64,000 nucleotides of DNA from Paenibacillus sp. (GTDB lineage: Bacteria > Bacillota > Bacilli > Paenibacillales > YIM-B00363). A program made the translations under genes and the position numbers. Position 1 is the first letter of the stretch. Each line of letters begins with the position of its first letter. The stretch covers positions 62,001 to 126,000 of the forward strand of contig NZ_DASQNA010000013.1 in the NCBI RefSeq assembly GCF_035645195.1. Reading direction: 5' to 3'. The notes under the pieces are model-generated. The model saw nothing but the letters and a program-made list of their open reading frames with translations. It did no database searches and had not been told where the DNA came from. Below are positions 2,444 through 41,782 of the stretch, one piece after another.

Positions 2444-3022
2444 TTAGTCATGCCCGATGATTCGAATGCTCCCCAACGGCCAAATGACGACATCCGCCCT
2501 GCCGACGATTTGCTCGTACGGGATAAAGCCGATATCCCGGCTGTCGTGCGAGTTGGGGCGGTTGTCCCCCATGACGAATACATGCCCTTCCGGCACCGTT
2601 TGCGGAGGATAATCCTTGTTGTTGTAGGTTCCCCCCGATGCCGCGGCCGTATCCACCGGTTCTTGAATATACGGCTCCGACAGCTGCTCCCCGTTGATCA
2701 ACACCGTGTCGCCGCGAACCTCCACCGTCTCCCCGGGAAGGGCGATGACTCTCTTGATGTAATCCGCGCCGAACCCCGAATGAAACACGACGACTTCGCC
2801 GCGTTCGGGCTGCCGGATATCGTACATTATTTTGTTTACGATAATCCGTTCCGCGGTATGAAAACTCGGCTGCATCGAAGGGCCGTCGACAATGTACGGC
2901 GAGAACAAAAACATGCGGATGACGACGACGAGCACGCCTGCGACGACGAGCGCCTTCGCCCAATCCACCGCTTCTTTGCGCCAATTCGCAGCGTCCGGAC
3001 GTCCGTTCGAGGACTCCTCCAT
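2444..3022 (-). CDS. lepB: Type I signal peptidase
   Basis: A 192-residue membrane signal peptidase that removes Sec signal peptides from exported proteins. One N-terminal membrane segment spans about residues 24-40. The catalytic dyad is S49 (DGPSMQPSF) and K90 ([11 protein letters not shown]). The C-terminal box E is [11 protein letters not shown]. The start is the ATG at 3022, because the frame extends 55 codons further upstream without family similarity and would run through the rplS terminator. The single membrane anchor and short length fit the Gram-positive SipS type. The gene lies between rplS and rbgA. Confidence 0.95.
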
Positions 3023-3078
3023 AGTTCCGTATCCTCCCAGCAAGCCACGTGATCGTAACTTTTTTATGTAGTATAAAG

Positions 3079-3113
3079 AAAAAAGGACTTGGTGATGTAT
3101 CACGCCAAGCCCC
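3079..3113 (-). terminator. Intrinsic terminator after rplS
   Basis: On the minus strand a long stem (GGGCTTGGCGTGAT pairing with ATCACCAAGTCC, around a short loop) is followed by six T residues. It lies just after the rplS stop and before lepB. Confidence 0.85.
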
Positions 3114-3122
3114 CTGTACTGA

Positions 3123-3467
3123 TTATCGAATCTCTTTAATTCTAGCCGCTTTACCGCGCAGGTTGCGCAGGTAGTAAAGCTTCGCACGGCGTACTTTGCC
3201 TCGACGAAGAACTTCGATCTTGTCGACGCGCGGGCTGTGCAGCGGGAACGTACGCTCGACGCCTACGCCGTAAGAAATTTTACGAACCGTATACGTCTCG
3301 CTGATGCCGCCGCCGCGACGCTTGATCACGACGCCTTCGAAGATCTGGATCCGCTCGCGCGAACCCTCTTTTACCTTAACGTGCACGCGAAGCGTGTCGC
3401 CGGGACGAAAGCTCGGAAGATCGCTGCGCAGTTGCTCGCGAGTGATTTCTTGAATCAAGTTGCTCAT
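3123..3467 (-). CDS. rplS: 50S ribosomal protein L19
   Basis: A 114-residue L19, a protein at the 30S-50S interface. Typical blocks are seen: [36 protein letters not shown] and an Arg-rich C-terminus with [16 protein letters not shown]. The start at 3467 is set by a consensus AGGAGG just upstream and matches the family N-terminus MSNLIQEIT. It has its own promoter and an mRNA leader downstream of trmD, and its own terminator, so it can be expressed separately from the trmD operon. Confidence 0.98.
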
Positions 3468-3559
3468 GGTATTACCTCCTTCCGCCATAGGCGTTCGTAT
3501 CGCTCCCGGAATGTACAAGCATTCCGCTCCTTGCCAATAGAGGACCGCCCGATATCCAA

Positions 3560-3621
3560 TTCAAGGCGACAGCCTTGAAACACACAACTAAGATCATATC
3601 ACATCGCCCAGAAGATGACAA
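3560..3621 (-). promoter_or_regulatory. rplS promoter and leader hairpin
   Basis: On the minus strand a sigma-A promoter reads TTGTCA (3616-3621), 17-bp spacer, TATGAT (3593-3598). Just downstream an exact 8-bp stem, TTCAAGGC/GCCTTGAA with loop TGTC (3560-3579), lies in the rplS leader. Firmicute rplS genes often have an autoregulatory L19 leader RNA; assignment to that class is inference from position and structure. Confidence 0.7.
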
Positions 3622-8331: not shown

Positions 8332-8351
8332 CGCTATCCCCTTCGCTCAGG
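8332..8351 (+). repeat. 20-bp island motif, copy 1 (forward)
   Basis: CGCTATCCCCTTCGCTCAGG. This is the first of five copies of CGCTATCCCCNNNGCTCAGG around the transposase-like gene, in forward orientation. Confidence 0.85.
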
Positions 8352-8397: not shown

Positions 8398-8417
8398 CGC
8401 TATCCCCGCTGCTCAGG
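8398..8417 (+). repeat. 20-bp island motif, copy 2 (forward)
   Basis: CGCTATCCCCGCTGCTCAGG. It is identical to copy 1 except for the three central bases and lies 66 bp downstream in the same orientation. Confidence 0.85.
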
Positions 8418-8514: not shown

Positions 8515-8534
8515 CGCTATCCCTTTAACTCAGA
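8515..8534 (+). repeat. 20-bp island motif, copy 3 (forward, degenerate)
   Basis: CGCTATCCCTTTAACTCAGA. It differs from the consensus at three positions outside the variable centre. It ends 40 bp before the -35 element of the transposase-like gene. Confidence 0.7.
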
Positions 8535-8573: not shown

Positions 8574-8602
8574 TTGATCCAGAACATGTGTTCTGATATC
8601 AT
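8574..8602 (+). promoter_or_regulatory. Promoter with LexA (SOS) box in the spacer
   Basis: A plus-strand promoter reads TTGATC (8574-8579), 17-bp spacer, TATCAT (8597-8602). Inside the spacer lies GAACATGTGTTC (8582-8593), a perfect match to the Gram-positive LexA half-sites GAAC-N4-GTTC. LexA bound there would block RNA polymerase. This is a sequence match, not proof of binding. Confidence 0.65.
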
Positions 8603-8638
8603 ATGGGTAGGAACACTGGTTCGGTTGGAGTGGTTTTT

Positions 8639-9469
8639 ATGGAGGATATTATTTCGTTCTTCTTCCGTCGGAAATGGCCCAACGGTTTTCGCTGCCCGCG
8701 GTGTTTCCACACCCAGGCTTATTCGGTGAACACCCGCCGGCTCCCTCTATTCGAATGCAAAGCCTGCAGCCACCAAACGTCGCTGACTGCCGGTACCATA
8801 TTGGAAGGAACCCGTACTCCGCTTCACAAATGGGCCGAAGCAATGCGTCTCGTCTCCTGCGATCGGAGCATCAATGCCGTTCAACTTGCCTCTCAAATTC
8901 AGGTAACTTATAAAACGGCTTGGGCCATGCTGATGAAAATTCGCAAGGCACTTTCCGCCGAGGAATCGCAAACTCCACTCCAAGGACGCGTATCCTGCAG
9001 CGTCGCCTTCTACGGTCGAAGAAATTGCCACTACATCCGCCATCCTCAGGAGCATGCCGTTCTAGTCGCAATGGGAACAACCGATACAGATAGCCGATCC
9101 ATGATTAAATTTCAATACATCACGCCTAATGACATGATTGGGAAACGACTGCGGCCCTACGCAATGTTTCAATTCGCACAGCAGCATACGAAAAGCTGTA
9201 CGGAGTTTCGCATGTTAAACCGCATACAATATTATCGAAGCTTCGTTCTGCCTGTCGTTTTCGAGAAAGTCAAAACATGGATTAACAAAACGTTCCGCGG
9301 TATCGGGCCGAAATACCTCCAATACTATTTGGACGAGCACTGCTTCCGTCAAAATAAAGCTTCCCATGGCGCAAACATATTCGACTCTCTAGCCATGGTG
9401 TGTTTACGTACGCCCAAATCGCCGCTGCTTCCTACATTACAGAATGCAGGGCTATTTCTAGCGTCGTAA
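8639..9469 (+). CDS. Degenerate IS1595-like transposase, possibly domesticated
   Basis: A 276-residue protein with the IS1595/ISXO2 layout. A zinc ribbon has C19, C22, C40 and C43 (FRCPRCFH and FECKACSHQ). The family block SLTAGTILEGTRTPLHKW follows, then a helix-turn-helix (about 75-100) and the C-terminal family signature FRGIGPKYLQYYLDEHCFR. The catalytic core is eroded. Where active members read V-x-VDE-x-[FY]-x-GG, this reads VSCSVAFYGRR (118-128), without the Asp and Glu, and the segment that should hold the second Asp is short and unrecognisable. The ORF is nevertheless intact with a good ribosome site (GGAG 8627-8630; ATG 8639). DNA binding is plausible and transposition unlikely. Codon use is AT-richer than its neighbours, which suggests transfer. 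Confidence 0.8.
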   Translation: MEDIISFFFRRKWPNGFRCPRCFHTQAYSVNTRRLPLFECKACSHQTSLTAGTILEGTRTPLHKWAEAMRLVSCDRSINAVQLASQIQVTYKTAWAMLMKIRKALSAEESQTPLQGRVSCSVAFYGRRNCHYIRHPQEHAVLVAMGTTDTDSRSMIKFQYITPNDMIGKRLRPYAMFQFAQQHTKSCTEFRMLNRIQYYRSFVLPVVFEKVKTWINKTFRGIGPKYLQYYLDEHCFRQNKASHGANIFDSLAMVCLRTPKSPLLPTLQNAGLFLAS

Positions 9470-9532: not shown

Positions 9533-9552
9533 CCTGAGCGACGGGGATAGCG
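9533..9552 (-). repeat. 20-bp island motif, copy 4 (inverted)
   Basis: Read on the minus strand it is CGCTATCCCCGTCGCTCAGG, matching copies 1 and 2 at all 17 fixed positions. Its orientation is opposite to the copies left of the gene. Confidence 0.85.
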
Positions 9553-9677: not shown

Positions 9678-9697
9678 CCTGAGCAGAGGGGATAGCG
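9678..9697 (-). repeat. 20-bp island motif, copy 5 (inverted)
   Basis: Read on the minus strand it is CGCTATCCCCTCTGCTCAGG, again matching at all 17 fixed positions. It lies 145 bp from copy 4 and close to the ftsY terminator. Confidence 0.85.
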
Positions 9698-19587: not shown

Positions 19588-20589
19588 TCATTCCCCTTTC
19601 CCTAGCTCCGAAGCGATCGTGCCGACAACGTCCGACCGAAGGGCCGATACCGTTTGGCGCACCGCGTTCTTGATCGCCCGCGCATCGCTCGATCCGTGGC
19701 TCTTCATGACGACGCCCGTAAGTCCGAGCATCGGAGCCGCTCCGACTTCCCTGTAGTCCATCTTGTCCCGGAACTTCCGCAGTCCCGGGCGCAGCACGGC
19801 CGCAGCCAGCTTAGACAGCGTCGTCCGCGTAAACTCTTGCTTCAAGGCGCCGAACAGCGTCTGCGCGGTGCCTTCCAACGATTTGAGCATCACGTTGCCG
19901 ACGAAGCCGTCGCAGACGAGCACGTCGCAGACGCCGTTCAAAATGTCCCTCGCCTCGACGTTGCCGACGAACCGAATCGGCGCCGCTTCGAGCAGCGGGT
20001 ACGCCGCCTTCGTCACTTCGTTGCCTTTCCCCGGCTCCGTGCCGACGTTCAGCAGCCCGACGCGCGGCTCCTTGATGCCATGCACCTTGCTGCGATAAAC
20101 GCTGCCCATGACGGCGTATTGCGCCAGCTGCTCCGCGGTCGCGTCCATGTTGGCGCCGAGGTCGAGCGCCAGCACGCCGACGCCGTCCATCGTCGGAATC
20201 ATCGGCGCGAGCGCCGGGCGCTCGATGCCTTTGAGGCGGCCGACGACGAGCAAGCCCGCAGTCATCAGCGCGCCCGTATTGCCGGCCGAGATGAGCGCGT
20301 CCGCTTCGCCGCCCTTCACCATCGACGCCGCGACGACCATCGAGGCGTCCTTCTTGCGGCGGACGGCGCGAACCGGCTCCTCGTCGGCCGCGATGACCTC
20401 GGAGGCGTGGCGGATTTCGACGTTGGACAGCGACGCGGCGCCGCTTGCGGCGAGCAGCTCGCGAATGCGCGCTTCGTCTCCGACCAAAATGATTCGGGCG
20501 TCGGCGAACTCCTTCGCCGCTTCCGCGGCGCCCGCGACGATGCCTTCGGGAGCGTTGTCTCCCCCGAACGCGTCAATGGCGATTCGCAT
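19588..20589 (-). CDS. plsX: Phosphate acyltransferase PlsX
   Basis: A 333-residue peripheral membrane enzyme that converts acyl-ACP to acyl-phosphate for PlsY, the first step of phospholipid synthesis. The N-terminus [20 protein letters not shown] and the blocks [32 protein letters not shown] and [12 protein letters not shown] are diagnostic. It overlaps the fapR stop by 17 bp, which suggests translational coupling. It belongs to the FapR regulon. Confidence 0.98.
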
Positions 20590-40468: not shown

Positions 40469-41701
40469 TTATTTGTAATGTCCGCCGATTTTCGCGGACC
40501 GGCCGTACGCCTGCCCGGCAAGGCCCGCCGATACGGCGCGCACGAGCGCGGACGGGCCGTAGCGCGCCTTGATCGCGTCCGTCGTCCGCTCGAGCGCCCG
40601 GTACGTCTCCCGCTCGTCGTCGAACTCGAGCTGGTACGTGTCGTCGCGCGCGAGCCCGCCGAGCGCGATGCTGAGCTGCCGCACCGGCCGGCCGTTCCAA
40701 AACTTGTGGAACAGCTCCTTCGCCGCCCGGTACACGTGGTTCGTCGCTTGGGTCGGCACCGGCAGCGTCGTCTGGCGGGAGAAGCCGAACTCGAAGCCGG
40801 CTCCCGCGCAGCCGACCGACAGCACCCGCCCCATCACTCCGCGGAACCGGCACCGGCGGCATACCTCCTCGGCCAGCTCCAGCAGCACCGTCTCGATGTC
40901 GCGCGCCTCGCCGTAGTCCCGCGGCAGCGTCATCCCGTGGCCGATCGCCTGCTGCGCGCCCTCGTGCGTGCCCGGAGCGACCGGCGAATCGTCGATGCCG
41001 TGCGCCGTGCGCCACAGCACCTCGCCGTTGATACCCCAGCGGCGCTGCAGCGTCGCGAGCGGCGTCCGCGCCAAGTCGCCGATCGTATAGATGCCCATCC
41101 GGTTCAAATGGCGCATCATGCGGCTGCCGATGCCGAACATGCCTTGGACCGGCAGCTTCCACAGCTTCTCCTCGACCTCCGCGCGGCGCAGGACGTACAC
41201 GCCCGACTCGTTCTTCTTCGCGTACTGGTCGCACGCCATCTTCGCCAGCACTTTGTTGTCGCTGATGCCGATCCGCGCGTACACCCCCGTCCGCTCGAGA
41301 ATGTCCCGCTGCATGCGCCGCGCCGTCTCGACCGGATCGCCGTGCATGCGCAGTCCCCCCGTCAGCTCGCAGAACTGCTCGTCGATCGAGAACGGCTCGA
41401 CCGCGTCCGCGTACCGCTCCAGGATGCGCGTGATTTGCATCGAGACGTCGATGTACGTCTGCATCCGCGGGCGGACGACGATCAGATCGGCGCACTTGTT
41501 GAGCGCCTCCCCGAGCCGCTCCGCCGTCGTCACGCCGTACCGCTTCGCGACCGGGCAGGCGGCCAGCACGATGCCCGAGCGCAGCTTCGGATCGCCCGCG
41601 ACGACGACGGGCTTCCCCGCCGTCTCCGGCCGGCTCGCCTTCTCGACGCTGGCGTAGAAGCTCTGCATATCGGCCATCATGACGACGCGTCCTTCCTTCA
41701 T
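40469..41701 (-). CDS. Y-family DNA polymerase, UvrX/YqjW type
   Basis: A 410-residue translesion polymerase related to DinB/UmuC. The palm residues are D11 (MMADMQSFYASVEKA) and D107/E108 (EPFSIDEQF). The helix-hairpin-helix GMFGIGSRMMRHLNRMGIYT follows, and the little-finger domain occupies the C-terminal third. The ATG at 41701 has AAGGTG at six bases; the longer frame upstream includes the promoter and is not coding. SOS boxes at its promoter and the neighbouring yolD match the UvrX/YqjW pairs of Bacillus. It probably copies damaged DNA under SOS induction. Confidence 0.92.
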   Translation of the reverse strand: MKEGRVVMMADMQSFYASVEKASRPETAGKPVVVAGDPKLRSGIVLAACPVAKRYGVTTAERLGEALNKCADLIVVRPRMQTYIDVSMQITRILERYADAVEPFSIDEQFCELTGGLRMHGDPVETARRMQRDILERTGVYARIGISDNKVLAKMACDQYAKKNESGVYVLRRAEVEEKLWKLPVQGMFGIGSRMMRHLNRMGIYTIGDLARTPLATLQRRWGINGEVLWRTAHGIDDSPVAPGTHEGAQQAIGHGMTLPRDYGEARDIETVLLELAEEVCRRCRFRGVMGRVLSVGCAGAGFEFGFSRQTTLPVPTQATNHVYRAAKELFHKFWNGRPVRQLSIALGGLARDDTYQLEFDDERETYRALERTTDAIKARYGPSALVRAVSAGLAGQAYGRSAKIGGHYK

Positions 41702-41726
41702 GCCCATCACCTTCGCAAAAAAATAA

Positions 41727-41782
41727 GAATATATGTTCGGCAAGGATACCCCTATTATATACCGAACGTACATTCTTATCCA
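41727..41782 (-). promoter_or_regulatory. SOS-type promoter of the Y-polymerase gene with two LexA boxes
   Basis: The minus strand reads TGGATA (41777-41782), 17-bp spacer, TATAAT (41754-41759). GAATGTACGTTC (41764-41775) lies in the spacer, and GAACATATATTC (41727-41738) lies in the early leader. Each matches GAAC-N4-GTTC with one mismatch. Confidence 0.7.

Follow-up and report, generated by a model that had tools for sequence, protein, structure and literature searches.

An IS1595-type protein without the catalytic triad, with LexA-type boxes and inverted end motifs, in Paenibacillus

The locus and its protein

The window, meaning the whole 64,000-nucleotide stretch of Paenibacillus sp. DNA that was analysed, carries an intact IS1595-type gene at 8639-9469 on the forward strand, with an open frame encoding 276 amino acids. 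Copies of a 20-bp motif flank the gene, and two LexA-type boxes lie at its promoter-like region. The features of the locus are:

8332-8351, + strand: end motif copy, upstream, 0 mismatches
8398-8417, + strand: end motif copy, upstream, 0 mismatches
8515-8534, + strand: end motif copy, upstream, degenerate, 3 mismatches
8582-8593, + strand: LexA-type box 1, GAACATGTGTTC, exact match, within the 17-bp spacer of the TTGATC/TATCAT pair
8611-8622, + strand: LexA-type box 2, GAACACTGGTTC, exact match, 29 bp after box 1
8639-9469, + strand: DDE-less IS1595-type protein, 276 aa (frame, profile matches, alignment, model)
Window protein, residues 4-46: zinc ribbon (Pfam Zn_ribbon_IS1595)
Window protein, residues ~62-110: helical, HTH-like region (predicted structure)
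Window protein: RNase H-like domain without catalytic triad, C-terminal signature KYLQYYLDEHCFR
9533-9552, - strand: end motif copy, downstream, inverted, 0 mismatches
9678-9697, - strand: end motif copy, downstream, inverted, 0 mismatches

The frame as listed runs from an ATG at 8603 to 9469 (+ strand). The ATG at 8639 is the likely start, since a promoter-like pair (TTGATC at 8574-8579 and TATCAT at 8597-8602, separated by 17 bp and read by eye) and the two LexA-type boxes lie around or just after 8603.

The first-pass annotation had described a 276-codon frame free of stops and frameshifts, encoding a transposase that had kept its zinc ribbon and C-terminal family signature and lost its catalytic residues, and each of these points was borne out. 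The frame is open, and C19, C22, C40 and C43 of the zinc ribbon are all present and are invariant in a 29-sequence family alignment; the Pfam profile Zn_ribbon_IS1595 matches with an E-value of 3e-10. The C-terminal end is the only part to match Pfam DDE_Tnp_IS1595, with a score under the gathering threshold, while the NCBIfam IS1595 model (NF033547) gives 84.1 bits against a cut-off of 75. In alignment with the intact relative L027, which has an Asp-Asp-Asn triad, S121 stands in place of the first Asp, a gap in place of the second, and K210 in place of the Asn. The helix-turn-helix that had also been proposed stands as far as the predicted structure goes, with helices at residues 62-73, 80-87 and 91-110, although no HTH profile matched. 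PADLOC models yielded no match at an E-value of 0.01 for either the window protein or the intact relative L203.

The AlphaFold2 model of the window protein, built with 69 sequences, has a pLDDT of 92.2 and a pTM of 0.88. Among known structures, VIA-align ranked the Hermes and ISCth4 transposases first (Z-scores of 9.1 and 9.0), followed by retroviral integrases; Foldseek alone gave weak hits, with a best E-value of 7.5e-3. The assignment of this predicted domain to the RNase H-like fold may therefore be described as modest but consistent.

The source genome (5.95 Mb) holds family sequences in eight places: four full genes, two N-terminal pieces and two C-terminal pieces. The three other full genes are 37-42% identical to the window protein. 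The pieces, L005-L008 on contigs 37, 43 and 14, are cut at contig ends, so that breaks in the assembly fall within family genes. Copies with an intact active site, of which many near-identical ones would have spoken against a domesticated protein, were not seen in this genome, the four pieces ending at contig ends. Matches to the window protein were found in 21 of 60 related genomes, the nearest relative being 52% identical. In the scan of named genomes, the best 80 of 477 confirmed loci were retained, and these belong to Paenibacillus, Cohnella, Ammoniphilus and a few unclassified genomes.

Besides L027, 106 non-redundant relatives, mainly from Paenibacillus and Cohnella, were compared at the catalytic positions, and in 103 of them the two catalytic acids are not both present. 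Eight have Asp and four have Glu at the first position; at the second, 98 have a gap and six have Asp. L171, L190 and L203 are the only relatives that are acidic at both Asp positions and also carry the Asn. Loss of the triad is thus common to nearly the whole family, and a private defect of the window copy was ruled out. The zinc ribbon profile is found in 68 of the 69 members of the alignment A2, and DDE_Tnp_IS1595 in 47 of them (E-value 0.001). A tree was calculated from 68 rows, namely 56 selected from 107 family rows, six intact relatives and six outgroup sequences. The ten intact relatives in it form one group with a support of 100, and the 52 dead (catalysis-free) rows require two changes, a single origin also being possible.

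Among the matches listed for 149 genomes of the order, the catalysis-free form occurs in 49 (E-value 1e-30) and an intact-type match, fragments included, in 12, which indicates that the lineage persisted beyond the loss of catalysis. More distant relatives (L209-L214) have no recognisable first catalytic motif, and most are short or divergent past the HTH; five of these six have a LexA-type box near their start.

LexA-type boxes and the end motif

Box 1 (GAACATGTGTTC) sits between the -35-like and -10-like hexamers of the window gene, which makes the gene a candidate member of the LexA regulon. A search for GAACRNRYGTTY and close variants, in 280-bp windows placed over the gene start, recovered a LexA-type box upstream of 77 of the 80 named genes (the best 80 of 477), as against 138 of 3095 control windows drawn from the same loci. 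Two or more boxes were present in 41 of these best 80, as against 25 of the 3095 controls, and the spacing from box to box in the family is mostly 26-30 bp. A Y-family DNA polymerase gene within the window (40469-41707, - strand; Pfam IMS, E-value 1.5e-42) served as a control for the pattern: its boxes at 41727 and 41764, each with one mismatch, precede the likely start (41707) by 20-70 bp. The lexA gene of the source genome has five box matches within ~170 bp upstream. The recA gene of that genome has no upstream box by the patterns used, which cautions against reading every such pattern as a full regulon.

The boxes extend to intact elements. L171, L190 and L203 all carry them, and at least one box is present in seven of seven loci with a complete frame among intact relatives having the motif DDAFFG, DDAYFG or DDFYIG (L233-L235, L237 and L252-L254). 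For 15 further IS1595 loci, several with incomplete frames, the outcome was mixed: six intact elements of another subgroup, with VEMDETYF or VEMDETNF (L238, L240, L241, L243, L246 and L249), have one clear box each, L251 has two, L250 has one weak box, and seven have none. To judge from the boxes in these six, LexA control may be common among the IS1595 elements of this order. No box was seen in L215 and L216, two cut-off intact pieces in one genome (G048) whose gene starts were not located. In L125, a more distant intact IS1595-group element (contig C32 of G022), the inverted repeat differs from the motif described below and includes a LexA-type palindrome, GAACATAAGTTC.

The 20-bp motifs that the first-pass annotation had noted nearby proved to be real. 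The window gene has five copies in its vicinity, three upstream on the + strand and two downstream on the - strand, where 0.18 would be expected by chance, and none of 100 shuffled sequences reached five. Across the family, the end motif reads TATCC-N5-GCTCAG, with inverted copies bracketing the genes. For a family-wide view, we assembled 102 loci, consisting of the 80 named loci (best of 477) minus five duplicates and three on short contigs, plus 30 from the numbered genomes; of the duplicates left out, one (L153) is not represented by a twin among the 102. Setting aside three intact loci leaves 99 dead ones, around which TCC-N6-YTCAG was searched within 1.2 kb. The motif had the expected orientation 232 of 245 times (119 + copies upstream and 113 - copies downstream) and was reversed in 13 (four and nine, respectively); these counts are not independent, owing to orthologous loci and tandem copies. 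Copies in the expected orientation lie on both sides of 57 of the 99 dead loci and on at least one side of 85, and are lacking in 14. As the search pattern was derived from these loci, the frequency of the motif is biased, but its orientation is not. Outside the pattern, the T and A that precede TCC are found in 89% and 83% of copies and the third C in 96%, and weaker conserved positions extend to -14.

The origin of the motif can be read from L171, L190 and L203. These intact elements are 1006-1007 bp long, have the Asp-Asp-Asn triad, and end in terminal inverted repeats (TIRs) composed of TTTGATTATCC or TTTGATTCTCC, five variable positions and then GCTCAGG or ACTCAGG; in general form, TATCC (or TCTCC)-N5-(G/A)CTCAGG. 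Exact 8-bp target duplications flank L190 and L203, and L171 has none. Hence, the dead family carries as its motif the TIR of living relatives, and the inverted copies on both sides of the window gene are candidate TIRs. The intact, LexA-boxed elements thus share with the dead family a homologous protein, the TIR motif and the boxes, and differ from it in their retained catalytic Asp and, in L190 and L203, their target duplications. The lineage of the window gene is old, and it descends from, or shares an ancestor with, LexA-boxed insertion sequences of the IS1595 group. With its zinc ribbon and C-terminal signature, the window element is IS1595-derived by origin and fold; judged on the DDE motif and target duplication, it falls outside the IS1595 insertion sequences.

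Throughout the source genome, 18 motif matches (two mismatches or fewer) fall into only three clusters: at the window gene, at a paralogue (contig 46, position 48202) whose downstream copies are repeated in tandem in units of 47 bp, and at a gene-less place, also on contig 46. Dispersed, genome-wide repeats of the REP type were rejected for this genome on this distribution, two of the three clusters lying beside family genes. The gene-less cluster (L061, 20304-21249 of contig 46) has + copies at 20304, 20386 and 20677 and, from 20799 onward, - copies repeated in tandem about a dozen times; the surrounding 8 kb is devoid of family genes.

Selection on the family and a proposed role

If the family consisted of decaying pseudogenes, dN/dS near 1 or frames full of stops would be expected. 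Among the best 80 of 477 named loci, a choice that favours open frames, 78 have no internal stop. We estimated dN/dS for 27 hand-chosen, overlapping pairs, which include L137 and L140 with one stop each. The ratio is 0.13-0.31 in the 22 pairs with dS of 0.07-0.89, and 0.08 and 0.09 in two pairs with dS above 2; the three further pairs are saturated. Low values are found both where one locus with shared flanks is followed through different species (L173, L179 and L192; 0.13-0.14) and between recent copies at different loci (L150 and L151; 0.21). The coding sequences of the family are under purifying selection, as measured in family pairs to which the window gene, with its nearest relative at 52%, does not belong, and open frames and ratios together disfavour a neutral pseudogene for the family. 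Rather than being a relic, the window gene probably encodes a functional DNA-binding protein.

Our tentative reading, to which we would give a probability of roughly 0.4, is that the gene encodes an SOS-induced, non-cutting protein that binds transposon ends, and that the effect under selection is the occupation of those ends. Upon DNA damage, LexA would be cleaved and the dead protein made. Through its zinc ribbon and HTH it would bind the end motifs that flank its own gene, and perhaps related ends elsewhere, and it may pair left and right ends as a transposase does, without cutting. Such occupation could repress the element's own promoter, which adjoins the left motifs, and could shield the ends from the intact, likewise LexA-boxed relatives, the dead protein acting as a non-cutting competitor. 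Among these proposed steps, end binding can be held with more confidence, and shielding with the least.

Were shielding effective, dead and intact forms might exclude each other. Such mutual exclusion was not found: among the matches listed, intact-type sequences occur in 3 of the 49 genomes with the dead form and in 9 of the 100 without it (Fisher p 0.75), and shielding is therefore without statistical support. For this comparison, intact meant at least 45% identity to L203 over a stretch including residues beyond 130; matches were sorted by hand, and fragments and one match with five stops (in G144) were counted. G073 and G048, which have more intact-type matches than the other genomes, show no dead form among the matches listed, an observation from two genomes only. 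Furthermore, the dead motif reaches to -14, past the ancestral terminus at -8, so that dead proteins may no longer recognise living ends, and as no intact copy was seen in the source genome, no competitor is known there at present.

Dispersal, rival readings and related systems

The first-pass annotation had regarded the gene as a candidate domesticated protein and had looked to orthologues at the same locus. None is there: the ffh-ftsY interval of four genus-mates (G001, G003, G004 and G005) holds no family member, nor does the 3.5 kb beyond the 3' end of ftsY in a fifth (G002), in a stretch without ffh. The fixed position expected of a domesticated gene thus fails at the window locus, and it holds at some other loci; L087, L101 and L102, for example, share both flanks in three genomes, and among 30 loci shared flanks were found in small groups only. 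The idea of domestication survives in part, in that catalysis is lost, the DNA-binding parts are kept and the family is under purifying selection; what we find is a dispersed, multi-copy element family and not a single tamed host gene.

This dispersal leads to the strongest alternative, namely that of a selfish, non-autonomous element whose protein would mark or pair the ends while catalysis comes from outside, be it from an intact LexA-boxed insertion sequence acting in trans, from another nuclease or from recombination; selection would then be for being copied. Units that are 85-91% identical do lie at different loci of one genome, in C. terricola (L150 and L151) and in P. sp. MSJ-34 (L177 and L178), and in three sets (L151 against L150; L177 and L178; L227 against L221 and L225) the shared sequence begins, for at least one copy, 21-39 bp outward of the leftmost end motif. 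Since the dead rows need one or two losses on the tree, dispersal probably continued after the triad was lost, and gene-less motif remnants were found as well. One locus of G002 (L297, on contig C307, at about locus positions 3000-3600), orthologous to L226 of G001, was expected to be an empty site, but it has kept end motifs of both orientations; it is an internal-deletion remnant from which the gene was lost.

Against this selfish element stand the missing target duplications: at the outermost motifs of dead loci, seven or more shared nucleotides were found in 1 of 57, where shuffling gave a mean of 0.7. Right-hand homology ends irregularly among the copies compared, and clean boundaries were not found in the C. 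silvisoli copies L166 and L170, which share ~96 bp past the leftmost motif, or in the copies of P. oralis and P. macerans (L188, L194, L199-L201, L204 and L205), which have several hundred bases in common beyond the end motifs; these shared flanks possibly represent a host element carrying the copies. The low dN/dS at one locus across species (L173, L179 and L192) is likewise unexplained by copying alone. After the loss of catalysis the units probably went on to disperse, either by some means other than ordinary IS1595 insertion or by one whose marks were later erased. We consider a selfish element of this kind somewhat unlikely.

A second alternative is that of a host regulatory or chromosomal protein, whose sites near the gene ends would serve repair, nucleoid organisation or transcription after damage and not transposition. 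The LexA-type boxes, the multiplied motif copies and vertical retention at some loci would all suit such a protein, as would a biased placement. At the 101 loci with two neighbours, the latter taken as simple long open reading frames, the element gene opposes co-directional neighbours 51 times and follows them 11 times, and the right-hand neighbour is directed at its 3' side in 81. A related bias in the farther neighbours (213 to 69) indicates that whole regions are oriented. A host function is harder to reconcile with the patchy occurrence of the family, as no match at an E-value of 1e-30 is listed for 92 of the order's 149 genomes, and positive genomes have 1 to 15 each. Nor does it sit easily with the small groups in which flanks are shared among the 30 loci, or with the confinement of motif matches in the source genome to three clusters, and we regard it as rather unlikely.

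A third reading, in which the protein still catalyses by way of a rearranged active site or a different one, is in line with units that seem to have dispersed after the loss of the triad and with the conservation of H183 in 74% of dead proteins. However, across residues 112-222 of 103 dead proteins, conservation of any acidic position does not exceed 53%, so that no replacement active site is visible, and target duplications were not found; we judge this reading to be very improbable. Finally, an ordinary insertion sequence drifting neutrally, while in keeping with the lost triad, the absence of the element at this locus in genus-mates and the gene-less or internally deleted remnants, is scarcely credible given dN/dS of 0.13-0.31 in 22 pairs, 78 of 80 frames (best 80 of 477) without a stop, invariant cysteines in a divergent family and conserved promoter boxes.

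The flanks of the family genes have a further property, in that they are rich in tandem repeats. TRF arrays cover 6.9% of the nearest 1 kb upstream and 10.8% downstream, as compared with 0.2-0.6% at 1 to 4 kb, and an array of at least 50 bp lies within 1 kb at 64 of the 102 loci but in only 2 of 204 far windows. When noncoding DNA alone is counted, the figures are 17.1% near and 1.1% far, a difference of about sixteen-fold. The array units, 6 to 233 bp long, are unrelated between loci, and as they vary in length and sequence with the locus, the repeats seem to arise anew at these elements. A more inclusive picture would be that of a mobile element that spread and diversified within the Paenibacillaceae once its sole protein no longer had the catalytic residues, with an SOS-induced end-binder, multiplied TIR-derived sites, no target duplications and frequent birth of tandem repeats at its flanks; taken as a whole, we hold this to be doubtful.

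Genes of the window type score against IS1595 transposase models and are readily dismissed as relics. If end binding and shielding by the SOS-induced protein are true, the family would be a bacterial equivalent of those transposon repressors that derive from broken transposases, and a repressor switched on by the living element's own DNA-damage signal. If spreading is true, it raises the question of how a transposon can spread when it has no catalytic transposase. Both ideas are testable now that the end motif and promoter boxes are known and an intact relative whose ends match has been identified. Among the papers listed in literature searches, none dealt with LexA-controlled IS1595 elements or with the window family, although subscription papers and preprints lay outside the search and absence is thus unproven; nor did any of those listed contain the combination seen here, namely an IS1595-type protein without the triad, with LexA-type boxes and TIR-derived sites.

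The closest known systems each share a part of this combination. The IS1595 family, divided in the portions available of PMC8101967 and PMC12561309 into the groups IS1016, ISPna2, ISH4, IS1595, ISSod11, ISNwi and ISNha5, shares with the window family a single gene, an N-terminal zinc finger (lacking in the IS1016 group) and the C-terminal DDE_Tnp_IS1595 signature; the DDE motif and the usually 8-bp target duplications described there both fail in the window family. TnpA_REP/RAYT proteins, as presented in the accessible part of PMC8266576, are domesticated transposases and similarly combine a transposase-derived gene with short repeats. However, they are HuH enzymes that act on single-stranded REPs, whereas the window family is predicted to be RNase H-like and non-catalytic, with a TIR-derived motif; identity with a RAYT/REPtron was rejected, HuH being absent and IS1595 zinc ribbon and DDE profiles and an RNase H-like model being found instead. 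Merlin ORFs of Stentor and Symbiodinium (PMC8101967) are kept open with the DDE unconserved in several, and domestication was raised by the authors. These ORFs are eukaryotic, no conserved TIRs or target duplications were found around those of Stentor, and the portion of that report available makes no mention of LexA control. SOS control, for its part, is cited for IS10 in the accessible text of PMC13393415, which also describes a LexA box that overlaps the transposase promoter of ISCR1, ISCR2 and ISCR8, as the candidate box does in the window gene. The ISCR transposases are of another type, and their beta/gamma-proteobacterial box was bound by LexA in EMSA, whereas the boxes of the window are matches in sequence.
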